NCBI GenBank assembly: GCA_012932295.1
Contig: JAAONU010000016.1
Span: 31,805,290 to 31,869,289, forward strand
Direction: 5' to 3'
From: Cyclina sinensis
Taxonomy: Eukaryota; Mollusca; Bivalvia; Venerida; Veneridae
DNA: 64,000 bases
A program made the translations under genes and the position numbers. The notes under the pieces are model-generated. The model ran no database searches. It saw nothing but the letters and a program-made list of their open reading frames with translations, and was not told the origin of the DNA. Below, piece by piece: positions 13,290 through 64,000 of the stretch; positions within the stretch are counted from its first letter, which is position 1; each line of letters opens with the position of its first letter.

Positions 13290-14573
13290 TTTATGCGATG
13301 ACAACAATGTCATCTGCGTACAATAATACACATACTTTTTCATTTACTATATCGACACCCATATTTAAATTCCTAAGAGATACAGTTAGGTCGTTTATGT
13401 AAATGTTGAATAAAATTGTAGATAACGAACATCCTTGACGCAAACCAGTACCAACACTGAACCAGTCCGACATAAGGCCATTAAGACGCTCACATGATGT
13501 TACGTTGTTGTACGGTGACCTTATTGCGGAGAGCGTTCTGGGCGATAAACCATGATTATTGGCCAATTTGTGCCTTAGAAGGTTTCTATTAATCGAGTCG
13601 AACGCCTTGCGGAAGTCAATAAAAGCACAGAACGTTGCCTTTTTATTCTATTTACGTGTATCTCTAATGCTCGTGCGACTTGACAGGTAATCAGCTCTAC
13701 AGTGCTTTTTACGAAAGCCATTTTCTCCTCCACAATAAGGTCACTGTAATCTGACCATTTTACAATACGATCATTCAAAAAAACTTTTAAACATTTTATA
13801 CATTGTTGCTGCTAAAGTAATACCCCTATAAGATATTGGATCCCTGGGATCCTTGGATCCAGATTTTGGTATAGGATTTATAATGCTCTTTGACCAGATA
13901 GTCGGTACTTGCCCACTTTGAAAACAAACATTAGAAATACAATGTAAGACATAAATGGATGAATCATTTTTGAGAACCTTAGATGGAATCAAATCAATTC
14001 CTGCAGCTTGAACCAAGTTTAGCTTTTATTACAGCTTTAACAATTTCCAAAATACTTATATCTTTGTCTTACTTATCTTTTAAATATCGTTCTCAGTGCT
14101 ACTGTCATCATTTATGTTGCTATCAACATTTAACAATGAACTAAAATCATGTTGCCATTTCTCTAGAACAAACTTTACATCATTACAAATACTACCATCT
14201 TCTAAACAATTTGCATAGGAATTAGCTTATTACCATTAAATCCAATTCCAGTTTTACCTATTCTTTTAGGTCATTTTTCTAAGTACTAAAGTATGATAAA
14301 ATTTCATTCAGTGTTTTATACAAGTAAGTATGCTTATAGCTCTAAACATCCCTATCAAATATCTTTCTAAGCAGTTCATATCTATGCTTAAGATCCCTCT
14401 TCATGGATATTTATACACTTTAACCACTCCCGTTCGGCTGCATGGAGGGGTTTCCAAGACTCGGTTAGGCTATCATTCCACCAAGGCTTTCGATTTTTAC
14501 ATTTCTTATTTGTAAAAACTATGTCATGACTCTGAAAATGTCTACCTTGTTTCGTGAACGTCTTTGTATACAA
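13290..14573 (-). pseudogene. LINE (non-LTR retrotransposon) reverse transcriptase fragment
   Basis: Reading the minus strand from 14573 downwards gives, in order: a connecting region with KPWWNDSLTESWKPL (14500s); RT fingers with GIDLIPSKVLKN, SGQVPTIWSKSIINPIPKSG and ISYRGITLA (14016-13771); motif A AFIDFRKAFDSINRNLL (about 13627-13577, catalytic Asp present); GLRQGCSLSTILFNIYINDL (13450s-13390s); and motif C YADDIVVIA, which ends in a stop at about 13291. Frameshifts separate these blocks, and everything after motif C as well as the endonuclease domain is missing. Both catalytic motifs survive in sequence, but the gene cannot make RT. The clade is not resolved by eye. Confidence 0.85.
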
Positions 14574-22195: not shown

Positions 22196-23237
22196 ATCTT
22201 ACACTGCTTTCCTTCATGTATGTGCCCAGATCTATCATTTCACTTATATAATACTGCTTTAAGCCAAACACGTTTGGGGATATTTGTCGATTACTTTGAC
22301 ATCTCTTTTATAAATGGATTCATTATTCACCTAAAAATAATCGTGACAGCTCGATCTTTGAATAATTTAAAAGTTTTCCAAAAATATACTCGACATTATT
22401 TTTTTTTATTACTTGCTAAAATTTATATTTAAAAAAACACCCCTTAGAGTAATGGCAATATTCAGATATCCTTTTATGACAAGAGTTGAGTGTTGATGAA
22501 GCTCAATTTTTATGTGATAATTAGTCGATGATACATTACTGCCGGCTCACGTGGTGAAGTAATTTCAAGTTTAATCAGCGACATAGAAAGTCAATCTGTC
22601 TTACGGATCCTTATTATCAGAACAGAACAGCTCTGACCTTATTATCACACATTTAGCGTCGAAAGTCAGGAAACTTTTCAGAGAAACTTCGATAAATCTG
22701 AATGAAGAATGATGGCTTTGTGACAAATTTGTAAAGATAAGTTTTACGTAATTAACCCTAGATTCTCTATTGTGTATCTATACACAAGCATTGCCTCGAG
22801 CACTCAACACGATTTGTCTCTTAAAAACGAAATAATAGCAGACAAATATTATAAACAGACTGAAGCTCATTGATTTGGTTCGTGTTTTTATATTTAAGTG
22901 TACTGTTTCTTGTTCACGGCAATATTTTCGTCAATGAAGGCGTCTCGCTTTGATTATAAGAAGACTGCTAGAAACGTCTTCAGTTGTCTTATGAAACCGT
23001 GATATGAAAAAATGTGTTTTAGCCTATCTTTCTAGCAATCGGGGCTATTTTACCATTCTTTCTTTGTTAAACTACATAGAATTTTTATACAATCATTCAA
23101 AAATTACTTGTAAAATCTGCAAGACGCGTCCTGGTACACGTGTAAATGGTAACGCAATTCTGATTTCACTCTAAAATCATAATAAAACGCATTTTATATC
23201 TATATATATATTTTATATTTAAGTATTTTCCCCCCTT
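22196..23237. other. AT-rich intergenic DNA, nothing recognised
   Basis: A chance ORF at 22193-22432 and a TA-rich run near 23198-23220. Nothing else supported. Confidence 0.4.
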
Positions 23238-24320
23238 ATTATACCCCATCACAAAATGTGGGGGGGACTATAATGGATTCGCTTTGTCGCGTCCGTCGGT
23301 CGGTCGGTCCGTCCGTCCGTCCGTCTACATTATCGTGTCCGCTCTATAAATCCTATACCAATTGAAGGAATTTCTTCAAACTTGGCTGAAATGTTCACCT
23401 CAACAAGGGGATGTGCAGAACCCATGTTGCCCATGCGTCAGCTCAAGGTCAAGGTCACAATTGAAGGTCAAATATCAAACAATCAAATATTAGGCATTAT
23501 GTCGTATCCGCTCTGTAAGTCCTACACTAATTGAAAGATTTTCTTTAATCTTGGCTCAAATGTTCACCTCAACAAGGTGATGTGCAGAACCCATGTTACC
23601 CTTTTGCCGGCTTAAGGTCAAGGTCACACTTAAAGGTCAAAAATTGACTTAGAAAATATTCTTAAAATTTAACATGTATTTGAATATTTCTGAAACTAGA
23701 AAACGTATTTGCTTGAAACTTAAAATATATATGAAGTGTCAAAATTAGGATGTGCAGGTCAAGTTTCATAACTCTGTATTGCATTTTGACAAAGTTATAC
23801 CCCTTTTTACAATCAAATATTATTCAAAATGTCGTGTCCGCTCTATAAATCCTATACTTATTGAAGAAATTTCTGCAAACTTTACTCAAATGTTCAACTC
23901 AACAAAGTTATGTGCAAAACCAATGTTACCTTTGTGCCAGCTTAAGGTTAAGGTCACACTTGAAGGTCAAAATTGACTTAGAAAATGTTCTTAAATTTTA
24001 ACATGACTTGAATATTTCTGAAACTAGCACAGGTATTTGCTTAAAACTTAAAATATATATGAGGTATCACAAGTAAGATATGCAGGTCAAGTTTCCTAAC
24101 TCTGTATTGCAGTTTGACAAAGTTATGCCCCTTTTTAAGTCTTTTAATTTACTTACAATAAATACTACACAATATGTCGTGTCCGCTCTATAAATTCTAT
24201 ACTAATGGAAGGATTTTCTTCAATTTGACTCAAATGTTATTCCCTTAACCACCTTTCCATGTCGTCTTCTGTCAAGGACATTGGTGGGGGTATGAATCGC
24301 ATTCAGCGATAGTTCTAGTT
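23238..24320 (+). mobile_element. Hairpin-GTCC-tandem element, diverged 169/330/345-bp cores
   Basis: The left hairpin has ATACCCC / CACA against TGTG / GGGGG (23241-23268). GGTCGGTCGGTCCGTCCGTC follows at about 23296-23325. Cores marked CGT(G/A)TCCGCTCT(A/G)TAA start at 23334, 23503, 23833 and 24178. Each full core carries CAAGGTCAAGGTCAC or GTCAAGGTCAC. The 3' end has GGGGGTATGA (24286-24295), complementary to the 5' ATACCCC, then a small hairpin TCGC-ATTCA-GCGA (24297-24309) and TCTAGTT. This matches the ends of the copy at 8127. Confidence 0.7.
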
Positions 24321-25984
24321 AAACATATATGTAATGTGCTCCTTTATTGAAATATACACATTTTTATATAGTCGTTTATAAATCTGCTTCACTGATAAGT
24401 GTTTCACTTCTCAACTTCCTTACTAATGAGAATCAAAAAATATAAAACTTTATTTTAAAAGGCACATAAGATTAGTCTGCATCACATACCTTCTATTGGT
24501 CGGCAGTTTATACCTGTATAAATCAATCAAAGGCCAAACCGAATGAGTCTTTTCTTCTCACTCAAGTACAAATTCTATTCTTTCTACAGCATACCGCCAA
24601 GATTGCACAAATCAAATAAAGATACAATATGAAGTCAGTCGTCTGCGAGAAATCTTATCTCCGCATGAAGAGTAGCCGAATGCTTATGTCAATTTCTGCT
24701 GAATAAAGTGAAATGCATTCCTATGTTATATGTACAGAGATGTGATTTATTTGCTGAAATACAAATCACTGATCCATTAAATGTCTGTAATTTTTAAAGG
24801 AGACAACAAAACAACTCCTTATTTTTAGTCAACCGTCTATGCGTACGACGTTATTGTTGGGTTGTGAACTCTTGTATGTAATTAATTGCTTAATCTCCAT
24901 TTAAACAAAAGGAAAAGGTCGGTACATTCTGACAACTTAAAAAAGAAAAACAATGAAAATGACAACGTTTAAGTTAGTTAATTCCATTGCTGTGAAGTTG
25001 ATGCAATTATTATTCAGCATCTATGTTGCTGGGTTACATTTCTCTTGATAAATGCTTAAATGTTCTGAAACTAAACCTGTAGTAGTTTGACAGTATCTCA
25101 AATGTATCACAGTCTCAACTTTTAAAGGTAAGTTATAAATACCAGTTACATGCATTAAACAGAGATGTTATGCTTTCATTTGATCATGAATAATACTTTA
25201 CGTTAGTAATTGAATGTCTTTTTTTGGTGTTTTACAAGTCGAGTAACAACTAGCAAATAATAAATGTTTACATTAAGAGTTTTATTTTTGTGATGATGTT
25301 TACTTCAGCACATTGTATATGTATAGTAAGTGCGTAAGTGCTATGACCAATATTCTTGAGAAGCGCCTTGTTTTCTGTCGTGACGTAGTTCTTTGGATAT
25401 CGAATTTTCAGTGTATATTTCGACATAAAACGTTTAAAATTACCAGACAATTTGGAAACAAGACAATGAATACATTACTCTGTAAGAGACGTATTTGATA
25501 ATATGCAAGTATCTAAACTATTCTACTTCAGAAGTAGTCCGCCTTAAGTATTGGAGAATTCGTTACTCACAAGGGAAATCGACAGATTGGACACAAGTAT
25601 CTCTTTGCGTTTCGTCATCTGAACGATATTTTCAAGTGACTGTCATTGATATTTTATTATTGAGTAATAATCCAATAGTTCGCTGTACAAGCTGACGTTT
25701 AATCTATATTTTGTTCATATCAAATAAACATTAACTATTTCGTATCGACAGTTTTCGTTTAAAAAAATGCATCACAGTGACCTAGACTATTTTTGTATGA
25801 CATACTTATACAAGAGTTGTCAGAATGACGCTGATGTCCTAGTTACGCGCTTCAAAAATCCCCGAGATCAATTAAAATGTCAACTGAGCACAGTGAATTA
25901 TAAACAGCTATGTGAAAACTTACCAACTCATAAATCTTTTCCTGGATTCTCTCGTATGAAGTATGGGCCCGTGTGAACTTACAT
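24321..25984. other. AT-rich intergenic DNA, nothing recognised
   Basis: Chance ORFs at 25268-25498 (both strands), 25495-25695 and 25767-25976. None has a domain or splice context. Confidence 0.4.
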
Positions 25985-30035: not shown

Positions 30036-30224
30036 TTATAAAATAGAGGATATTTGTTTGTTTTTGTGGAAGATGAGAATTTATTTCATCGAGTGAACAC
30101 CATATGTGATATTTTCACGAGTGGCACAGCCACGAGTGAAAATATCAACATATGGTGTTCACGAGATGAAATAAATTCCCATCTTCCACTAAAAAACAAA
30201 CAAATTTTCTTTTTATTTTATGCC
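30036..30224. repeat. Long palindrome (foldback repeat, about 90-bp arms)
   Basis: The two arms meet at a 5-base centre (CACAG, about 30127-30131). Left-arm blocks such as GAACACCATATG and TTCACGAGTGG return as CATATGGTGTTC and CCACGAGTGAA in mirror order. Outer blocks TTTGTTTGTTTTTGTGG and CCACTAAAAAACAAACAAAT also pair. A few mismatches and a small gap occur near the outer ends. It reads as a MITE-like palindromic element. The 65-codon ORF across it is an artefact. A further GGCATAAAATAAAAG at about 30605 mirrors the CTTTTTATTTTATGCC just outside the right arm. Confidence 0.85.
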
Positions 30225-37885: not shown

Positions 37886-38898
37886 TAACCCGTTGAACGT
37901 CAACGTTGGCGGCGCATTGGTATGCTCCAGACCGGAAGTACACAGGCCCAGGCTGCAGCTGACTTGAATGTTTCTCAGTCCGTTGTCTGTCGATTGCGGT
38001 CACGCTATCAAACAACTGGTGACGTGATTGGTATCCAAAGAAGTGGACACCCGAGACGACCGCTTTGTTGTTAATCAAACTCTTCGTAATAGAGTTCTGA
38101 CGGCCATAGACCTTCAACAACGCCTTCGACATGTCAGAAGGTCAATGTCTTGAGGCAGACAACCAGAAATCACCGTCTAGCAGACTATGTCTTAACGCTA
38201 GGCGCCCTCTGTGGTCTTGCCGTGGTCAGGAAGGCATCGTCATGAACGTTTGACGTGGTGTAGAGAGCGGCGTCGGTGGAATATTAACCAGTGGTAAAAT
38301 GTGATGTTCAGTGATGAATCTAGATTCAGCCTAGACTTTCTCGATGGTCGAAGAAGAGTTTTGCATCGCCCAGGTGAACGTTTTACAGACACTGCTAGGG
38401 TTGCCTACGACTGATATGGGGGATGGGTCCGTTATGGTATGGGGTGGCATCACTGTGAAAGCCAGAACACAGCTACATGTGTACCATGGCAGTGTGACTA
38501 GCCAGTACTACCGTGACAACATGTTGGTTCCGCATGTTGTCCCGTTTGCTCAACGTCATGGCTTCAAGGATGATAACGCTAGGGACCATGGGGCAAGACT
38601 CGTCACTGAGTTCCTGGAAGAGCAACATATCCGTACTTTACCATGGCAGGCGATGAACCCGGACTTATCACCTATTGACCATGTGTGGGACATTCTTGGA
38701 AATTGTGTCCGAAGACGTGATCCTCCATCCAGAATGTTACGTGAGCTCGGTGCGGCGCTGCAGGTAGAGTGGGACAGAATCCCTCAGCACACCACCAGTC
38801 GTCTTATTGGGAGTATGAGACGTTGCATAGCTTGTTGCGACAGTAGATGTGGTCCAACACGTTATTGGGGACGTGTGAAAAAGATGACGTTAACGTAA
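37886..38898 (+). pseudogene. Tc1-like transposase, frameshifted
   Basis: Blocks in order on the + strand: a helix-turn-helix region (MLQTGSTQAQAAADLNVSQS from 37922, RSGHPRRP near 38050); the first catalytic Asp in VMFSDESRF (38301-38327); then, after a one-base frame change near 38400-38420, an open stretch to TAA at 38898. That stretch holds SVMVWGGI, DDNARDHGARLV (second Asp) and NPDLSPIDHVWD. The spacing between the second Asp and the last acidic residue is 34 residues, as in DD34E Tc1 proteins, but the last residue is Asp where Tc1 has Glu. The 184-codon C-terminal ORF is the longest transposase piece in the window. Several stops and frameshifts break the N-terminal half. Terminal inverted repeats were not identified. 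Confidence 0.85.
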
Positions 38899-44894: not shown

Positions 44895-45287
44895 GTTTGC
44901 AAATATACTTGGCTCCCTGCTACAGTTATGTTTTTGCTGTCTTTTTTCAGAATGTCTTGAGGTAAACCGGAAAAAGAATATTGATACTACTGAACTAGGA
45001 GATTGCCAGAGTAGGAAATTACCTAATTTGGAAGTTGTCTGATAGAATTGTTGAACAAGAAAGTGGACACATGGTCGCTGACAGATCCCTCGTCGCATAA
45101 TGATCTGTGTTTCAGCCCAAGCTATCTCAAAAAGTCATACAATGAAAACAGAAAACAAAGCAATAAATCGAAAGGCGGTTACAAATAGCTCAGCCATTCT
45201 ATAGATCAGTTTTGGTGGTGTCACTCTCTGGGTGGCGACAAAACCGAAATAGTAATGTTAACAAACGTGAATCCTGCTTGAAGTTGC
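44895..45287 (+). other. Presumed 5' flank / 5' UTR of the ankyrin gene
   Basis: The 393 bases between the TTAA transposon and the start codon must hold the proximal promoter or 5' UTR if exon 1 is the first exon. No TATA box, initiator or CpG-rich patch was convincing. A weak acceptor-like TGCTTGAAG just before the ATG (to 45283) leaves open that an upstream exon is spliced here. The ORF at 44880-45098 (minus) is unsupported. Confidence 0.35.
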
Positions 45288-46650
45288 ATGGCGTCCAGAA
45301 AGTGTTCCAAGGAGCTGTATATATCCCCTAACCGTACAAAAATTCCAGATGTCTTCGTCATTCAGGATTTCTCACACTCGCCACCAAATGCAACTGCCCT
45401 TCAAGGTCACCTGTCCCCTTCTTATTGTGGATACTTATCCCCTGATTGTGCCTCTTCCGTTTATACGAGGTCAAACAGTACAGTTTCTTCCATTTTCGAT
45501 CTGTCGTTTGAAAGCGAGCAACTTGACCGGTCGCTTAGAGCAAACGATGCCTTTGCCGTTTCAAAAATTTTGCAAGTACATTATGGGAAATTCCCTATCA
45601 ATTTCCGTAGTCCAAGCCCATGGGATAGACACAGTGCTGAGTCTCGCGGCAGACGACCAAGTTCGAGGTCAGATGAACAAGGTATGTATGTGCGAAAACA
45701 GCCGACCTACTTTGACCGCGGAGAAGGATTCGACAGGCGGGAAAGTGTCACTCCAGAATGTGATATACCAGATATTTTTAGAACATCTCTTCACGTCGCT
45801 ATTTTACATAGTTCATTAGAAGTAATAGACGTTTTACTTAAGCATGGTATTGATCCAAATGAACCGCGCTCCAATTTGATCAATTCAGAGAGACGCTTGT
45901 CATCGTTTTTGTCGGATGGTAACAAACTACGACCAGACTGTGTCATTGAAGAATCATATGAGCAGTCGTATTCAGACGATAGTCTTGTAAATAAGTCTTC
46001 TGATAATCTTACTCTTCCTGTACCCGTCCAAGTTACCCCTGTCTCCACATCTAGTGAAACAAGCAGAAAACTTAGCACTGCATCTCATGACACTAGTAAA
46101 CCTAGGGCTTCTTTTGCAATTTCGCTGGACAATGAAATATGTTACACTACAGAGGAATTGTTTAATCTTCCGCCGCTTTTTATCGCCGTTCAAGAGAAAA
46201 AGGATATTGAGGTATGTTTTCTTTTGCATTACGGTGCTGATCCAAATGTTCAAGACCGCGCCGGAAACACGCCTTTACACTTAGCGGCCACCGATTCATG
46301 TTATGATCCAAATATATGTGCAGTATTATTACGTCATGGTGCTAAAATTAGACAGAGCAATAAACATGGACAGACACCGCTCGACTTCCGCCAGGGTCTG
46401 TTTGATATGCAAATTTCTGTGGTTAAAGACTTGTTGTCGGGAAAAAATAGTACGTTCAGTCTTAACAAATGTCTGGAGGCAAATAAACAGGGAAAGCGGA
46501 TCTCCCTATCGAGTTCGGCAGATTCTGGTTCACGAAATACGAGCAGATCAGGCAGTATCAAGAAACGCTTGTTTAAGCGTAGTGAAATGAAGGAGAGAGA
46601 AAAGATGGCGCGTGAACGACGCAGACTCGAAAGCACTTCCACAGGAACGG
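45288..46650 (+). CDS. Ankyrin-repeat protein, exon 1
   Basis: Large coding exon, 454 complete codons plus one base. The ATG at 45288 is the first after an in-frame TGA at 45279; its context (TTGCATGG) is only fair. The exon ends at the consensus donor G|GTAAGT (46650/46651); the apparent stop three codons later is intronic. Ankyrin repeats are recognisable at about residues 163-192 (TSLHVAILHSSLEVIDVLLK, HGIDPN) and 293-356 (PPLFIAVQ, LLHYGADPN, GNTPLHLAA, LLRHGAK), with a partial one from 360 (GQTPLDF). Residues 76-105 (LDRSLRANDAFAVSKILQVH) resemble an N-terminal ankyrin-like helix pair. A Ser-rich linker (195-290) separates repeats one and two. A basic, charged stretch (425-447, KKRLFKRSEMKERE) precedes the donor. 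There is no signal peptide or membrane segment. It is probably a cytoplasmic scaffold or adaptor; the exact orthologue is not recognised. It is the only long open, GC-richer frame in the window. Confidence 0.9.
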
Positions 46651-47052
46651 GTAAGTAATTCAAGGAAGATGCACAGGCATTTACGTCCCTCTAATAAACA
46701 ATTCAAAATTCACTCTTAGGATAGACTACATTACAAAACAAAATACGGACTATACTTTGTAGTATACGCATTTCCATAGACATTTTCACAGCAAGAGTCT
46801 TCTTACAAGGGCCAGATACATACTTTACACTTGATCTATAGTAATTACTCTATATATACGTTTATTTCCAATGATATGGTAAGAGCTCTTGCTACATTCA
46901 ACCGTAGGTTTGTTATAATGTGAGCGAAAGGTTTAGAGTGTCTCTCAACAAAAAGATATGTTTTAACTGCACCATCAGAATTATGATAAGTATTAGACAT
47001 ACTGGGGTATTTCATTTAAATAATATCAAAATTATGTTTTCTTGTTATATAG
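46651..47052 (+). other. Intron 1 of the ankyrin gene
   Basis: Starts GTAAGT and ends with ATAG (47049-47052) or, nine bases further, TTAG (to 47061). It is 402 or 411 bases long, AT-rich, with a T-rich tract (GTTTTCTTGTTAT) before the acceptors. No repeat inside. Confidence 0.75.
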
Positions 47053-47355: not shown

Positions 47356-49269
47356 TTATGCCCCCTCTTCAAAGAAGTGGGGGTATATTGCTTTGCATTT
47401 GTCTGTGGTCGGTCCGTCGGTCTGTAGACCAAAAGTTTCCGACCAATAACTAAAGAATGCTAAGGCCTAGGAACTTCAAACTTGGTAGGATGATTGTCCA
47501 TCACCAGAAGATGACCCCTATTGAATTTGGGATCAAGGGGTCAAAGGTCAAGGTCACATTGACCTTGTAGGTAGAAACGGTTTCCGACCAATAACTAAAG
47601 AACGCTTAGGCCTAGGAACTTTAAACTTGGTAGGATGATTGCCCATCACCAGTAGATGACCCCTATTGATTTTGGGGTCAAGGGGTCAAAGGTCAAGGTC
47701 ACATTGACCTTGTAGGTAGAAACAGTTTCCGACCAATAACTAGAGAACGCTTTGACCTAGGTTCACCAAACTTGGTATGCTGGTTGGTCATTACCAGTAG
47801 ATGACTCCTATTGATTTTGAGGTCATTAGGTCAAAGGTCAAGATCACAGAGACTTTCATCTTAAAAACGTTTTCCAATCAATAACTAGAGAACGCTTTGA
47901 CCTAGGTTCACCAAACTTGGTATGCTGGTTGGTCATCACCAGTAAATGACCCCTGTTGATCATGAGGTCATTAGGTCAAAGGTCAAGCTCACAGGGACCT
48001 TCATCCTAAAAATGGTTTCCGATCAATAACTAGAGAACGCTTTGACCTAGGTTCACCAAACTTGGTATGCTGGTTGGTCATCACCAGTAGATGACCCCTG
48101 GTGACTTTGAGGTCATTAGGTCAAAGGTCAAGATCACAGAGACTTTCATCTTAAAAACGTTTTCCAATCAATAACTAGAGAACGCTTTGACCTAGGTTCA
48201 CCAAGCTTGGTATGCTGGTTGGTCATCACCAGTAGATGACCCCCTATTGATTTTGAGGTCATTAGGTCAAAGCTCAAGCTCACAGGTACTGTGACTCTAA
48301 AAATGGTTTCGGATCAATAACTAGAGAATGCTTTAACCTAGGTTCACCAAACTTGGTATGCTGGTTGGTCATGACCAGTAAATGACCCGTTTTGATTTTG
48401 AGGTCATTAGGTCAAAGGTCAAGCTCACAGGGACCTTCATCCTAAAAATGGTTTCCGATCAATAACTAGAGAACGCTTTGACCTAGGTTCACCAAGCTTG
48501 GTATGCTGGTTGGTCATTACCAGTAGATGACTCCTATTGATTTTGAGGTCATTAGGTCAAAGGTCAAGATCACAGAGACTTTCATCTTAAAAACGTTTTC
48601 CAATCAATAACTAGAGAACGCTTTGACCTAGGTTCACCAAACTTGGTATGCTGGTTGGTCATCACCAGTAAATGACCCCTGTTGATCATGAGGTCATTAG
48701 GTCAAAGGTCAAGCTCACAGGGACCTTCATCCTAAAAATGGTTTCCGATCAATAACTAGAGAACGCTTTGACCTAGGTTCACCAAACTTGGTATGCTGGT
48801 TGGTCATCACCAGTAGATGACCCCTGGTGACTTTGAGGTCATTAGGTCAAAGGTCAAGATCACAGAGACTTTCATCTTAAAAACGTTTTCCAATCAATAA
48901 CTAGAGAACGCTTTGACCTAGGTTCACCAAGCTTGGTATGCTGGTTGGTCATCACCAGTAGATGACCCCCTATTGATTTTGAGGTCATTAGGTCAAAGGT
49001 CAAGCTCACAGGTACTGTGACTCTAAAAATGGTTTCGGATCAATAACTAGAGAATGCTTTGACCTAGGTTCACCAAACTTGGTATGCTGGTTGGTCATGA
49101 CCAGTAAATGACCCGTTTTGATTTTGAGGTCATTAGGTCAAAGGTCAAGGCCACAGGGACCTTGATCCTAAAAACGGTTTCCGATCAATAACTAGAGAAC
49201 GCTTTGGCCCAACCACAAGAAATTAGGTGTTGCCGGGGGGCATTTATGTTTTACAAACATTTCTTGTTT
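47356..49269 (+). mobile_element. Hairpin-GTCC-tandem element with a 145-bp array and 726-bp higher-order repeat
   Basis: The 5' hairpin is TATGCCCCCTCTTC / GAAGTGGGGGTATA (47358-47388). A GGTCGGTCCGTCGGTCTGT tract follows at 47408-47426. Twelve full units and a partial one start (at (G/A)A(C/T)CAATAAC) at 47441, 47586, 47731, 47876, 48021, 48166, 48312, 48457, 48602, 48747, 48892, 49038 and 49183: spacing 145, with 146 twice. Units 47731-48456 match units 48457-49182 in order, including the two 146-bp units, giving a 726-bp repeat of five units. The 3' end has GGGGGGCAT (49235-49243), complementary to the 5' ATGCCCCC, then a perfect hairpin ATGTTT-TAC-AAACAT (49246-49260) and TTCTTGTT. Confidence 0.85.
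47828..49147 (+). promoter_or_regulatory. Cluster of nine perfect DR1 nuclear-receptor-type motifs
   Basis: AGGTCAAAGGTCA (direct repeat of AGGTCA with one spacer base) starts at 47828, 47973, 48118, 48409, 48554, 48699, 48844, 48990 and 49135, once per 145-bp unit. Near matches lie at 47538 and 47683 (GGGTCAAAGGTCA) and 48263 (AGCTCA in the second half-site). A third half-site two bases upstream makes each an additional DR2. DR1 is the canonical site for HNF4 and RXR heterodimers in animals. Motif presence is direct; any activity is inference, and the motif is a by-product of the transposon repeat. Confidence 0.5.
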
Positions 49270-49425: not shown

Positions 49426-51225
49426 GAATATAGCTATATTTAAAACGACTTTGACATTCAAGAGCTGTTTTAAGTGCAGTAATTCCGAGTGGATTAGATT
49501 TGTCAGCTCTTTGGTCTGATTCAGAATCACTGATTTGGGTTATAAACTTTTCTTTATTTGAATTTGATTGTTGGTAATTATCGCAATATGTATATAGAAA
49601 TCACTTTTAACAAAAACTTTGAATTATACAAATTGAGACATGGTTCGTGCCTGTCGCAAACTTTAAAAGAAAAACCTGATTTCTCACATTCGCTTATGTT
49701 CTGTTTGTGACATAATTCTTATGTCTTGTTTGTGACATAATTCTGAAATAGTGATCTTATTCTGTAACACTTTTTTAAAAAGATTTTTTATACATTTTGT
49801 ACGATTTAATGCGACTTTAGAGTTATTTGAGACTAATATTTTATATGTGTTATTATCCATGCGTATTTATAAAGCATTTGCATTGCAAGATTGCATAAAA
49901 CTGGTCAAAATGGTGATCATACGGTACACGAAATACTTCGTCTATTATCTTTACAGCAACCAATTACACAATTCTAATATGACTGTTTTACTGGTTTTGT
50001 TTGTCACATGATCGAGCCGAAAAGGAGGACGATTTCAGTTATATTTCCTCAGACCCACTTTCTAGAAAAGACAGTATGACTTTCTTGATGAATGGCTCTC
50101 TTATCTTTTTTGTTTAGGAATCCCGTGTTAGTTGATTCTTGCAATATCTCTATTTTTCCCTTACGGGGCAATAAGTCGAGAGTTCGAGTCAGTTTCAAGG
50201 CTTGGTCTGGTAAAGCAATTGGTTGAGCTGTTAACTAATTTCAGAAAGAAAACCGATCGACTGTCTGTTTCTTGCCTGTTTTATTAAATATGGGTAGTTT
50301 CAGTTGATTCAACCTCGTCTTCGCATACGCCCATTAGGCTGATTCTTTCAGTAATAGTGCTACTATTCTAAGAGAGATACGTACGTCGTGCTAGAAGAAA
50401 GCGATGTATCAAAAGACTTTCAGGATAAGCTGGAGCGACTTCCTTGTCAATATAGATTTCATTTTGTAATCTGATATCATTAGCCTTTGATGGAAATAAA
50501 AACGTCGTTGCAACATTAAATAAACAAGTAATTTCAAATTAATATTTTTAATCTGTAATTAGTTAAATAACACAAGAATTTTTTTAAAGAATGATAGTTA
50601 TCAATACAAGTCTGTGTCTTAGCTTCTCCAAGAAAGACCTGCTTCTGTTGCGTGACGGTTCTTCTTACGTAAGTTTAGCTGAAGAAAATAGGGCAACTGG
50701 TATAAAAACAAGGAATGTGTAACAATAAATACTTCAGCTTTGTGTAAACTAGTCGGATGAAAATTTTCAAAAAGACATTTGTTGATTTTGTTTTGAGTAT
50801 TTTCTGCACTTATTTACGTCCTTCTCAATTTTAAAGAAATGTAACTGTAATTATAACAAACGCATTTAATTGATCGGCATTATGGCTCGGGTTTCTATAT
50901 TGCTTCGTCATACAAATGTCCCTTTTATCAGTTCTCTGAGTTTACTCTTTACCCTTAACATCATGTGTACGAGTCTGTAAAAGTTCTTGTTAGTAAGCAC
51001 CGAGTTTTTTTTCTACGATTATTAATGGACACTACGGTAGATACTTTCAGCGTTAAGAACAGGAAAACAAACAAACAAAATCTGGCAGAATGTTGGCAGA
51101 CTTTGATGATAATGTGCGACTGAGGAATTGGCGACGTATACACTGTGATATATTGAATTTGCTATGCGGATAAAACCGGCATTTTCCGAAAACTACATAT
51201 AGCGTTGTAAATTTATCATAATTTT
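49426..51225. other. AT-rich intronic DNA, one tandem pair
   Basis: A 26-bp unit (TTATGT.. TGTTTGTGACATAATTC) is duplicated at 49693-49744. ORF 49751-50011 has no domain. A weak tRNA-like word pair near 50155-50230 is not convincing. Nothing else. Confidence 0.4.
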
Positions 51226-52233: not shown

Positions 52234-52335
52234 TGACACAAGACACAAATAATTCCTACAAGTGACAGAAGACACAAATAATTCCTACAAGTGACACAAG
52301 ACAAAAATAATCCCTACAAGTGACACAAGACACAA
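52234..52335. repeat. 29-bp minisatellite, three copies plus a stub
   Basis: Units starting TGACACAAGACACAAATAAT begin at 52234, 52263, 52292 and (partial) 52321, with one or two mismatches each. Confidence 0.9.
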
Positions 52336-52668
52336 TCCCTTCAGTGATGACGGTTAGAAGATTATTCAAAATTTCTGACTTTGCATTGATAGAAATTCAA
52401 TTTAAAATGTATGGGTTTAGCTGAAAGCACATATTTCCAGACTGGAAATAATTTGCCGAAAGTAGCTCAGTACTTGCACTAGTAGATTGCTTATACCATT
52501 AAATGAAAATAATGTCGAATTTTAAATGGTCACTGAATCTTGCAGAGATATGGCGCAAGGTTAATAACCATCATACCTACTTAAACCATTACAATAAAAG
52601 TATGCTAGACTAGTTTATTAACATTGGCAAGCCTTGTTCCAAGAAAGCCCGATCTCAGTGCTAACCAG
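52336..52668. other. AT-rich intronic DNA, nothing recognised
   Basis: No feature seen. This is the left flank of the foldback element. Confidence 0.4.
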
Positions 52669-52689
52669 GGTTGTTATAGGTATAGGAAG

Positions 52690-54275
52690 TGAGCAGTAGC
52701 AATCGCAGCGGTAGAAAAACGTGAAGTTGGCAGTAGCAGTACGAGCAGTAGCAGTAAACAAAACGTGAAGTTGGCAGTAGCAGTAACAGCAGTAGAAGTA
52801 AATTAAAACGTGAAGTTGGGAGTAGCAGTACGAGCAGTAGCAGTAAACAAAACGTGAAGCTGGCAGTAGCAGTACGAGCAGTAGCAGTAAATTAAAACGT
52901 GAAATTGACAGTAGCAGTAAGAGCAGTAGCAGTAAACAAAACGTGAAGTTGGCAGTAGCAGTAACAGCAGTAGAAGTAAATTAAAACGTGAAGTTGGGAG
53001 TAGCAGTACGAGCAGTAGCAGTAAACAAAACGTGAAGCTGGCAGTAGCAGTACGAGCAGTAGCAGTAAATTAAAACGTGAAGTTGGCAGTAGCAGTACGA
53101 GCAGTAGCAGTAAACAAAACGTGAAGTTGGCAGTAGCAGTACGAGCAGTAGCAGCAAACAAAACTTGAAGTTGGCAGTAGCAGTAACGGCAGTAGCAGTA
53201 AACAAAACGTGAAGTTGGCAGTAGCAGTACGACCAGTACCAGCAAACAAAACGTGAAGTTGGCAGTAGCAGTAACAGCAGTATCAGCAAATTAAAACTTG
53301 AAGTTGGCAGTAGCAGTACGAGCAGTAGCAGTAAATTAAAACGTGAAGTTGGCAGTAGCAGTACGAGCAGTATCAGTAAACAAAACGTGAAGTTGGGAGT
53401 AGCAGTAACAGCAGTAGCAGTAAATTAAAACGTGGTTTGCAGTAGCAGTACGAGCAGTAGCAGTAAACAAAACGTGAAGTTGGCAGAAGCAGTAACAGCA
53501 GTAGCAGTAAACAAAACGTGAAGTTGGCAGTAGCAGTAACAGCAGTAGCAGTAAATTAAAACTTGAAGTTGGCAGTAGCAGTAAATTAAAACGTGAAGTT
53601 GGCAGTAGCAGTACGAGCAGTAGCAGTAAACCAAACGTGAAATTGGCAGTAGCAGTAACAGCAGTAGCAGTAAATTAAAACATGAAGTTGGCAGTAGAAG
53701 TACGAGCAGTAGCAGTAAACAAAACGTGAAGCTGGCAGTAGCAGTACGAGCAGTAGCAGTAAATTAAAACGTGAAGCTGGCTGTAGCAGTACGCAGTAGC
53801 AGTAAATAAAAACGTGAAGTTGGCAGTAGCAGTAAACAAAACGTGAAGTTGGCAGTAGCAGTACGAGCAGTAGCAGTAAACAAAACGTGAAGTTGGCTGT
53901 AGCAGTACGAGCAGTAGCAGTAAACAAAACGTGAAGTTGGCAGTAGTAGTACGAGCAGTAGCAGTAAACAAAACGTGAAGTTGGCAGTAGCAGTAACAGC
54001 AGTAGCAGTAAACAAAACGTGAAGTTAGCAGAAGCAGTAACAGCAGTAGCAGTAATTTAAAACGTGAAGTTGGCAGTAGCAGTACGAGCAGTAGCAGTAA
54101 ATTAAAACGTGAAGTTGGCCGTAGCAGTACGAGCAGTAGCAGTAAACAAAACGTGAAGTTGGCAGTAGCAGTAACAGCAGTAGCAGTAAATTAAAACGTG
54201 AAGTTGGCAGTAGCAGTACGAGCAGTAGCAGTAAACAAAACGTGAAGTTGGCAGTAGCAGTAACAGCAGTAGCAG
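52690..54275 (+). repeat. Left arm: 44-46-bp minisatellite, about 35 copies
   Basis: The unit has ACGTGAAGTTGGCAGTAGCA, then either GTACGAGC or GTAACAGC, then AGTAGCAGTAAA, with spacer CAAA (44 bp) or TTAAA/ATTAAA (45-46 bp). The two centre variants and two spacers are intermixed. The CAG/TAG-rich composition produces overlapping ORFs in several frames that are not genes: 44 is not a multiple of three, so each ORF hops through frames of the unit. Confidence 0.95.
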
Positions 54276-55275
54276 TAGGAAACTCTGAAAGTCTGCGAGA
54301 GTGTTTGAAACAGTCAGACCGGTGCAATCGATTCGGGATGGTAGCTAGACTTTCTAGATTGGCACCAAATTCCTGAAAGTTTGCATTAATGTCAGAAACA
54401 GTAGCAGACCGTAACAATGGACACCGGAGGGTCCCTTAACATAAAAAATGACATTTTCTCAATTTTGGCACCAACATTTCTGAAAGTCTATGAGAGGTTT
54501 AGAAACAGTTGCAGACCGGTAAAATTGACCCGGGAGGATGGCTAGACCTTAAATATGACATTTTCCCCATTTGCACCAAAATTCCTGAAAGTCTGCGAGA
54601 GTGTCAGAAACAGTCACAGACCAGTAAAATCGACACGGGAGGGTCCCTAGACATTAAAAATGACATTTTCCCAAGTGGCACCAAAATTCCTGAAAGTCTG
54701 CGAGTGTGTCAGAATCAGTCGCAGACCGGTAAAATCAACACGGGAGGGTCCCTAGACATTAAAAATGACATTTTCCCGATTGGCACCAAAGTTCCTGAAA
54801 GTCTGCGAGAGTGTCAGAAACAGTCGCAGACCGATAAAATCGACTTGGGAGGGTCCCCAGACATTAAAAATTACATTTTCCTTAGTGGCACCAAAATTCC
54901 TGAAAGTCTGCGAGTGTGTAAGAAAAAGTCGCAGACCGGTAAAATCGACAAGGAAGGGTCCCTAGACATTAAAAATGACATTTTCCCGATTGGCACCAAA
55001 ATTCCTGGAAGTCTGCGAGAGTGTCAGAAACAGTTGCAGACCGGTTAAATCGACTTAGGAGGGTCCCTAGACATTAAAAATTACTTTTTCCCAAGTGACA
55101 CCAAAATTTCGAAAGTCTGCGAGTGTGTCAGAAACAGTCGCAGACCGGAAAAATCGACTTAGGAGGGTCCCTAGACATTAAAAATAACATTTTTCGGATT
55201 GGCACTAAAATTCATGAAAATTTGCTAGAGTGTTAGAAACAGTCGCAGAACTACGCAATAGACTCTGGAGGGTCT
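54276..55275 (+). repeat. Central 105-bp array, ten units, alternating A/B types
   Basis: Units marked by CCTGAAAGTCTGCGAG occur near 54285, 54373, 54480, 54585, 54690, 54795, 54900, 55005, 55109 and 55214. Inner spacing is exactly 105. From 54585 on, units alternate between one carrying GATTGGCACC..CGAGAGTGT and one carrying AAGTGGCACC..CGAGTGTGT, so the true period is about 210. Outer units are more diverged, as expected for an array homogenised from the middle. Because 105 is 35 codons, one frame stays open (54509-55048), encoding a 35-residue repeat (DIKNDIFP..GTKIPESLR). I treat this as a by-product. Confidence 0.9.
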
Positions 55276-55333
55276 GTTGATGTTTAAACATGTTTTATTT
55301 TCATTGAAACTTTCAAGACATTTAAGACTTTCT

Positions 55334-55773
55334 TACTGCTACTGCTGTTACTGCTACTGCCAGCTTCACGTTTTATTTACTGCTACTGCTGTTACTGCTA
55401 CTGCCAACTTCACGTATTGTTTTACTGCTACTGCTGTTACTGCTACTGCCAACTTCACGTATTGTTTTACAGCTACTGCTGTTACTGCTACTGCCAACTT
55501 CACGTTTTGTTTTACTGCTACTGCTGTTACTGCTACTGCCAGCTTCACGTTTTGTTTACTGCTACTGCTCGTACTGCTACTGCCAACTTCACGTTTTGTT
55601 TACTGCTACTGCTCGTACTGCTACTGCCAACTTCACGTTTTGTTTACTGCTACTGCTCGTACTGCTACTGCCAACTTCACGTTTTGTTTACTGCTACTGC
55701 TCGTACTGCTACTGCCAACTTCACGTTTGATTTAATTTCTACTGCCAACTGCTACTGCGTACTGCTACTGCCA
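55334..55773 (-). repeat. Right arm: inverted 44-bp minisatellite, about 9-10 copies
   Basis: Reverse complement of the left-arm unit (GCTACTGCCAACTTCACGTT and so on), ending in CAACTTCCTATTAGT at the element boundary. Left-most units (55334-55550) are of the TGTTAC type, and those to the right are of the TCGTAC type. The arm is about a quarter as long as the left arm. Confidence 0.95.
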
Positions 55774-55795
55774 ACTTCCTATTAGTGGTTGTTAT

Positions 55796-56562
55796 TTTAA
55801 GGCAGATATCATAAAAGTAAAAGCGGGTTAAGGAGATGTTGAAACTTTATTTTTAACAGTAAAAGTTGAAGTAATAAAAGAAATTTAAAAACAATATTCA
55901 TATCACGATTTGTGCTTTTTCTGCGACAATGTGTTTATGTGACTTAGATTTTTTATGAAAGCATGATCACGTCATAAAGTCGCGTGCATCTAAATAACTA
56001 GAGACTTAATTCCGTCTGAGTAAGCAAATGTTGCCATCTTTGTATATAATGTAATTAAAATATTACAGTTATTTTAAACAAAAGGCAGGTCAAACGAAGG
56101 ACATTTGATGCTAGCCTTGACTTCTTGTATTCACTATTTTAGCAGTAGATATGACGTAAACATTTTTCGTACACTGTGCTTGCATGGCGTGTCTTTTTCT
56201 CAAAGCAGAATAGAGCATCGCTCTCAAGCGGAGGCATACTCACATTGTTCATTTTGAGAGATATTTCCATGAAAAAAAATCTTGTTTGCTGAACAAAGAA
56301 CACGATGTATTTTATACCGGTTTATAATTTTGTTGTCACTGTTACAGGCAACTATATATAAATATTTAGCAAGATCCGTGAATCTTTATATGTGTAAGCC
56401 ACATACACAAGATCGTTCTCCGTTTGCATGTGAAATCAAAACAAACGTGCCGGATATTCATTTTAGCGTTACAAGTATATTTCAAATCAGGAACACGAAG
56501 TATTTATTATAAGTAAAGCACGTTTAACAGAATATGATATTATCCCGAGGTTTTCTTTTCTG
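55796..56562. other. AT-rich intronic DNA, nothing recognised
   Basis: Chance ORF 56282-56512. No domain or repeat. Confidence 0.4.
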
Positions 56563-63399: not shown

Positions 63400-64000
63400 A
63401 GCTTACCTGAGCCGTAGGCTCATGGTGAGCTATTAGGATCGATCAATGTCCGTCGTCTGTCGTCCGTCCATACTTAACGCTCTAGCGGTCACATTTTTGC
63501 CTCAATTGTCTTGAAACTTGGTCTGGATGTTTGACCCAATGATTTCTCGGACGAGTTTGAACATGGGTCATCTGGGGTTTAAAACAAGGTCACAATGCCA
63601 AAATATGGAAAATCATTGTTAACACTCTAGAGGCTACATTTACAGTCAGAATATCCTGGAAATTTGTCTGAAAGGTTGATTTGATGATTTCTAGGTCCAG
63701 TTCGAATATGGGTAATTTGGGCTTAAAAACTAGGTCACAATGCCCAAATATGGAAAAACCTTGTTAGCACTCTAGAGAGGTTACATTTTCAGTCCAAATA
63801 TCCTGGGAATTTGTCAGAAAGGTTGATTTGAAATTGTAGCTCAATTTCGAATATTCGTCATCTGCGGTCAAAAACTAGGTCACAGAACCCAAATATGGAA
63901 AAAACCTGTTAACACTCTAGAGGTTACATTTTTAGTCCAAATTACCACGAAATCTACCAGAAAGGTTGTTTCAGTGATTTCTAGCTCGAGTTTGAATATT
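63400..64000 (+). mobile_element. Hairpin-GTCC-tandem element, 145-bp core, cut by window end
   Basis: The 5' hairpin is AGCTTACCTGAGCC / GGCTCATGGTGAGCT (63400-63431, loop GTA). GTCCGTCGTCTGTCGTCCGT follows at 63449-63468. Units starting TAACGCTCTAG, TAACACTCTAG or TAGCACTCTAG begin at 63475, 63620, 63765 and 63910, exactly 145 apart each time. The unit is distantly alignable with the 145-bp unit at 47441 (shared AAACTTGGT, GGTCAT, AGGTCACA in order). The right end is outside the window. Confidence 0.8.

Follow-up and report, generated by a model that had tools for sequence, protein, structure and literature searches.

Architecture of the unit

Between positions 52678 and 55786 of the window (the whole stretch of 64,000 nucleotides analysed here), three arrays of tandem repeats follow each other. 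Are they independent satellites, or the parts of a single mobile element? The original prediction favoured one mobile unit of foldback design in a mollusc host, and this remained the best reading of the locus, the support for it being anatomical. The predicted order, that is a 44-bp minisatellite, an unrelated 105-bp array and the 44-bp minisatellite in inverted form, was borne out by the analysis of arrays and inverted pairs. The unit has a total length of 3,109 bp and is composed of a left arm of 1,600 bp, a centre of 1,055 bp and a right arm of 454 bp (Table 1). The two 44/45-bp arrays are in opposite orientation, with about 35 units on the left and 9 units on the right, and the 105-bp array is located between them. 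The longest inverted pair measures 325 nt with 91% complementarity.

As judged from its anatomy, the region 52678–55786 is probably one DNA-transposon insertion, namely a non-autonomous foldback element of Mutator-like (Phantom/Muta/Tm1-type) affinity in a bivalve. A mobile insertion, of whatever kind, can be assumed here with high confidence.

Table 1. Features of the unit and of its flanks (positions in the window).
Feature	Positions	Strand	Remark
Target site duplication, left copy GGTTGTTAT	52669..52677	+	1 of 2 copies in the window
Left terminal 10-mer AGGTATA-GGA, Tm1 A1-like motif + GGA	52678..52687	+	compared with the motifs given in the available part of PMC3169594
Left arm, outermost diverged block, from the terminal motif to the first full unit	52688..52715	+	
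Left arm array, about 35 units of the 44/45-bp repeat	52716..54277	+	
Left arm inner junction (GGAAACTCTGAAAGTCT...), partial inverted homology to the right inner junction	54278..54300	+	
Central 105-bp array, 10 units counted including diverged edge units	54285..55320	+	
Right arm inner junction	55321..55332	-	
Right arm array, 9 inverted units of the 44/45-bp repeat of the left arm	55333..55729 (TRF: 55333-55728)	-	
Right arm, outermost diverged block	55730..55776	-	
Right terminal 10-mer, read inward ACTAATA-GGA, Tm1 A2-like motif + GGA	55777..55786	-	compared with the motifs given in the available part of PMC3169594
Target site duplication, right copy GGTTGTTAT	55787..55795	+	

Target site duplication and termini

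The exact 9-bp flanking duplication that had been claimed was recovered: GGTTGTTAT adjoins both ends of the unit and occurs nowhere else in the 64 kb on either strand. Among random pairs drawn from the window, an exact match of 9 bases at two fixed places was obtained in 46 of 2,000,000 cases. A 9-mer common to two stretches of 17 bases, at any place, was found in 22 of 20,000. When the window was scanned unguided for any 9-bp inverted repeat flanked at the same offset by 9-bp direct repeats, a single place was returned, which is this unit, and no unit-like element was detected elsewhere in the 64-kb window. The same scan returned at least one such place in 7 of 30 dinucleotide shuffles (mean 0.27), and therefore the weight of the duplication lies in its coincidence with the ends of long inverted arms. 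When 8-bp duplications enclosing an inverted repeat were searched for in an unguided scan of the window, none was found.

The 13-bp terminal inverted repeat of the original prediction had to be corrected. Comparison of the left 13-base end (AGGTATAGGAAGT) with the reverse complement of the right one (ACTAATAGGAAGT) showed that position 1 and positions 5–13 (ATAGGAAGT, 9 bp) match and that positions 2–4 differ. The true end structure is a 9-bp identity located behind an asymmetric outer stretch. Over 20 bases read inward, the left (AGGTATAGGAAGTGAGCAGT) and right (ACTAATAGGAAGTTGGCAGT) ends are alike at 15 positions. No convincing likeness between the arms was detected beyond the outer ends when 60 bases outside each end were compared. 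At the inner junction, the likeness extends approximately 10–20 bases beyond the array.

An interior made nearly entirely of tandem repeat, and the fact that 7 of 30 shuffles also produce 9-bp direct repeats around short inverted repeats, would agree with a locus without any transposon, in which a satellite array underwent inversion or rearrangement in situ and a 9-bp repeat stands at its edges by chance. This explanation is very improbable: the repeat lies precisely where the inverted arms end (the 22 of 20,000 cases, even with slack), both arms have the same end layout with similar inner junctions, and the arm-private variants described below are unlike the product of a recent local inversion.

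The duplication also bears on the non-autonomous Helentron of the pearl/HINE type, a known bivalve carrier of short satellite-like arrays. In the available part of PMC7492417, bivalve HINEs are described as mobile elements harbouring satellite-like arrays, as does the unit, but in a central position, between modules with subterminal inverted repeats. Helitrons are described there as having no target duplication, whereas the unit has an exact one of 9 bp adjoining both ends, and its arrays form inverted arms. A Helentron is hence hardly conceivable at this locus, and a foldback transposon remains the preferred reading.

Composition and growth of the arms

The full 44/45-bp unit of the arms consists of two 12-bp cores (GCAGTAGCAGTA or close) and the stretch AAAACGTGAAGTTG. 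Two of the approximately 35 units of the left arm are short (29–30 bp). With at most 2 mismatches, 70 occurrences of the core were located in the left arm (53 of them exact) and 20 in the right arm (18 exact). The spacing between cores is mainly 15 or 29–30 bp, as seen in 65 of 69 intervals on the left and in 17 of 19 on the right. By analogy with Galileo, in which such repeats hold transposase binding sites and are thought to give specificity (PMC3688188, as far as the available part describes), the 12-bp cores are likely to be transposase binding sites.

Each arm displays traces of its own growth. An exact internal duplication of 161 bp with an offset of 178 is present in the left arm (52743 and 52921), and an exact self-overlap of 142 bp with an offset of 44 in the right arm. 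Variants private to one arm were also identified, with GTAAATTAAAAC counted 12 times on the left and 0 on the right, and GTAAAACAATAC and GTAAAACAAAAC counted 0 times on the left and 3 on the right. For units of 40–46 bp, to which this calculation was restricted, the mean identity is 0.912 among left-arm units, 0.932 among right-arm units and 0.918 between the arms, and the best arm-to-arm alignment displays 89.4% identity over 464 columns. The private variants, the self-duplications and the identities within and between arms show that both arms share a common origin and that each expanded on its own, with no clear indication that one was recently homogenised by the other.

Relatives were searched in viral and genome contig collections, which are non-animal and from which records near the window's own genome were possibly left out. 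There, GAAGTTGGCAGTAGCAGTA had 0 matches in viral contigs and 1 match in genome contigs, located in a bacterial MAG; this match is a single site, the surrounding 251 bases contain no array, and it was taken as chance. The sequence GACCGGTAAAATCGAC matched once in each of 19 viral contig stretches, and these matches were also taken as chance rather than as relatives.

The central array and coding potential

The central array was delimited by TRF at 54358–55249 with 8.5 copies, and 10 units are counted when the diverged edges are included. Units in the middle are the most uniform and those at the edges the most diverged, a pattern expected from growth by unequal exchange or slippage. From 54585 to 55213, the 105-bp units alternate between an AGTGG/AGTGA-type and an ATTGG-type, which suggests a higher-order period of 210 bp.

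The length of the unit (3 x 35) and one reading frame that is open for 181 codons made a coding centre a candidate. The three codon positions vary alike (40, 40 and 44 differences, no bias), and the only Pfam match above cut-off, to Vma22_CCDC115, is marginal (28.9 bits, cut-off 28) and lies on a repetitive reading. The 105-bp array was therefore rejected as coding. Among the 12 stop-to-stop frames of at least 110 codons touching the unit, 11 had no Pfam match at E 0.001, and no recognisable transposase was identified inside the unit by the Pfam analysis of these frames. A structured RNA was rejected as well, with Rfam yielding no match either at gathering scores for the whole window or at E 0.1 for the region 52600–55900.

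Other features of the window

Four other array regions of the window were examined, and no long inverted arms were found around any of these arrays (for 22600–24800, this holds among the matches listed, which were 5 of 8 pairs). Two arrays with a period of 145 bp were detected by TRF at 47435–49206 (12.2 copies) and 63539–63999 (3.2 copies). The first of them is enclosed by a 27-nt inverted pair of 74% (46975–47001 / 49720–49746), with no long inverted arms. A 29-bp array of 3.5 copies at 52234–52335, about 330 bp outside the left end of the unit, appeared by eye to be unrelated to the arms.

Traces of other mobile elements were also observed. At 30037–30220, a sequence of about 180 bp resembles a hairpin, with 67-nt arms at 82% complementarity and an inner TGATATTTTCACGAGTGGC stem, and is perhaps a MITE. 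A candidate remnant of a DDE_3 transposase at 38335–38898 (Pfam E 0.00065, which does not reach the curated cut-off) is perhaps of Tc1/mariner-type, and a fragment of reverse transcriptase (RVT_1, E 9.2e-16) is located on the minus strand at 13291–13647. An ankyrin-repeat reading frame of 458 codons at 45282–46658 is conserved in bivalves, with 67% identity to a protein of Mactra antiquata, 53% identity (over 78% of the query) to a protein of Dreissena polymorpha, and four better matches of up to 90% identity. The protein likeness places the host among the bivalves, probably as a heterodont close to Mactra.

Comparison with Tm1 of nematodes

The closest match found was Tm1 of root-knot nematodes (Meloidogyne). 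The available part of PMC3169594, to which all statements on Tm1 refer here, describes 9-bp duplications, asymmetric 7-bp ends (A1 and A2), the triplet GGA, an unequal tandem motif C and a purine-rich motif. The 9-bp duplication and the layout of asymmetric 7-bp ends with GGA are common to Tm1 and the unit. Both also have tandem repeats in variable number which differ between the two ends (about 35 versus 9 in the unit), and Tm1 has non-autonomous copies with other interiors (PMC3169594), in likeness to the non-autonomous unit.

The letters of the ends were then compared, those of the unit being A-GGT-ATA-GGA and A-CTA-ATA-GGA, those of Tm1 C-GGT-TAA-GGA and C-CTA-CCC-GGA (PMC3169594). With A1+GGA and A2+GGA of M. 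incognita, 13 of 20 positions agree (left 7 of 10, right 6 of 10). Among random pairs, 38 of 500,000 agreed at least as well, and 253 of 500,000 did so when the second end shared 7 of 10 letters with the first. With the A1 form of M. hapla, 12 of 20 positions agree (left end 6 of 10), as reached by 257 of 500,000 pairs; these chance rates are optimistic, because the comparison was made post hoc and Tm1 was the sole such family of which the end letters were compared.

The inner parts of the two elements differ. Motif C of Tm1 has about 14 bp and 1–9 units per arm (PMC3169594), compared to a 44/45-bp composite with about 35 and 9 units here. It is absent from the arms of the unit, in which the 44/45-bp repeat shares, by eye, little beyond CAGTA, and the unit was therefore not filed as Tm1 itself. 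The inner junction (GTAGGAAAC / GTAAGAAAG) shows a weak and not convincing likeness to the purine-rich motif D of Tm1. Tentatively, and with more doubt than confidence, an asymmetric end code nGGTnnnGGA / nCTAnnnGGA may be proposed as conserved between foldback elements of a bivalve and of a nematode, the arm repeats of which are otherwise unalike.

Foldback design arose with different transposases, Galileo having one of P-type (available parts of PMC3169594 and PMC3688188), and no transposase was seen in the unit. It could be argued on these grounds that the element was moved by another superfamily (P/Galileo-like, hAT or another with 8–9-bp duplications) and that its repetitive arms and Tm1-like ends are convergent. 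This is unlikely, as Tm1 is matched more closely than expected by chance by the 9-bp duplication and by the 7+GGA ends, the first positions of which are asymmetric, in a comparison made post hoc. The preferred reading is still a Mutator-like element. The transposase of Tm1 resembles the Phantom subclass of Mutator (PMC3169594), and the Mutator-like transposase to which the original prediction pointed agrees with the closest published relatives, Tm1 and Muta1.

Relation to other elements

Comparisons in this section refer to the available parts of the cited papers. Two features expected of MULEs were found in the unit. Its exact 9-bp duplication falls within the 8–11 bp given for MULE target duplications (PMC6446971), and long terminal inverted repeats, which are typical but not universal, are present as arms of 1,600 and 454 bp. 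Molluscs are known to harbour MULEs (PMC6446971, PMC10294476). In the survey of PMC6446971, the Phantom group lists no mollusc host and molluscan MULEs are placed in groups of their own; because the Phantom group of that survey lacks molluscs, a MULE of a non-Phantom group is equally possible for the unit. The family membership is read from the anatomy; a MULE-domain transposase, of FLYWCH-MULE type for the Phantom subclass, would be expected in the element or in an autonomous partner sharing its ends, and none was recognised inside the unit.

In Muta1 of Aedes aegypti, which moves in yeast, a 12-bp repeat is present in 9 copies, with spacers of 3–4 bp, behind a 10-bp terminal motif (PMC5225508). 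Muta1 and Muta5 resemble the unit in their 8–9-bp duplications, a terminal motif (10 or 8 bp), tandem subterminal repeats with units of 12 or 15 bp and non-autonomous derivatives with heterogeneous interiors (PMC5225508). Their terminal inverted repeats measure 145–151 bp with 9 repeats, compared to 1.6 kb and 0.45 kb here, and the terminal motif of Muta1 is an imperfect palindrome, unlike that of the unit (PMC5225508); the likeness was drawn from the published description.

Tetris of Drosophila virilis is also a non-autonomous foldback element with tandem repeats in the arms and unequal copy number, with 8–10-bp duplications, and is described as a source of satellite arrays (PMC4079207). As compared by description, it differs by repeats of about 220 bp and by an outer domain that can reach 866 bp (PMC4079207). 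Drosophila FB4, likened by description, shares the foldback design, with 9–10-bp duplications and terminal inverted repeats of about 700 bp (PMC8277862). Rehavkus (9-bp duplications) and the aphid Phantom (8–10-bp duplications) are MULE-like and carry a minisatellite, as does the unit, but a single one, placed close to the 3' end or downstream of the transposase gene, whereas here both arms are made of it (PMC6446971). The transposase of Rehavkus contains a PHD finger, and the hosts listed for this group are arthropods and annelids (PMC6446971).

The design of a foldback or Mutator-type transposon is known; the unit stands out by unusually long, unequal minisatellite arms and a satellite core. 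Among the matches listed from open-licence papers, no mollusc foldback or Phantom element was described. Tandem-repeat MITEs of a clam were reportedly treated by Satovic and Plohl in 2013. The unit is known from the one copy in the window, which counts against the proposed reading.

Proposed mechanism

Under the preferred reading of a Mutator-like foldback element, a MULE transposase supplied from elsewhere in the host would bind the many 12-bp cores of each arm, pair both ends and cut beside the 7-bp+GGA termini. Insertion with a 9-bp staggered cut, followed by fill-in by the host, would leave GGTTGTTAT twice. The arms would have grown through local tandem duplication, each side separately, up to about 35 units on the left and 9 on the right. 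The 105-bp array may be cargo, or the remnant of a former interior that was expanded likewise.

Significance

With this reading, three apparent satellite arrays become one insertion. It would also add a bivalve case to a proposal made for Drosophila Tetris, namely that satellite DNA arises from foldback arms. Non-autonomous Helentrons are reported as carriers of scattered satellite-like arrays in the Pacific oyster (available part of PMC7492417), and a cut-and-paste carrier would represent a second route for satellite-like arrays in bivalves. The end layout offers a concrete pattern for the search of related elements. If the end code is true, MULE transposases of distant animals would read the same left and right end signs, leaving the inner repeats free to change, and any short repeat located behind such an end could be driven into satellite arms.
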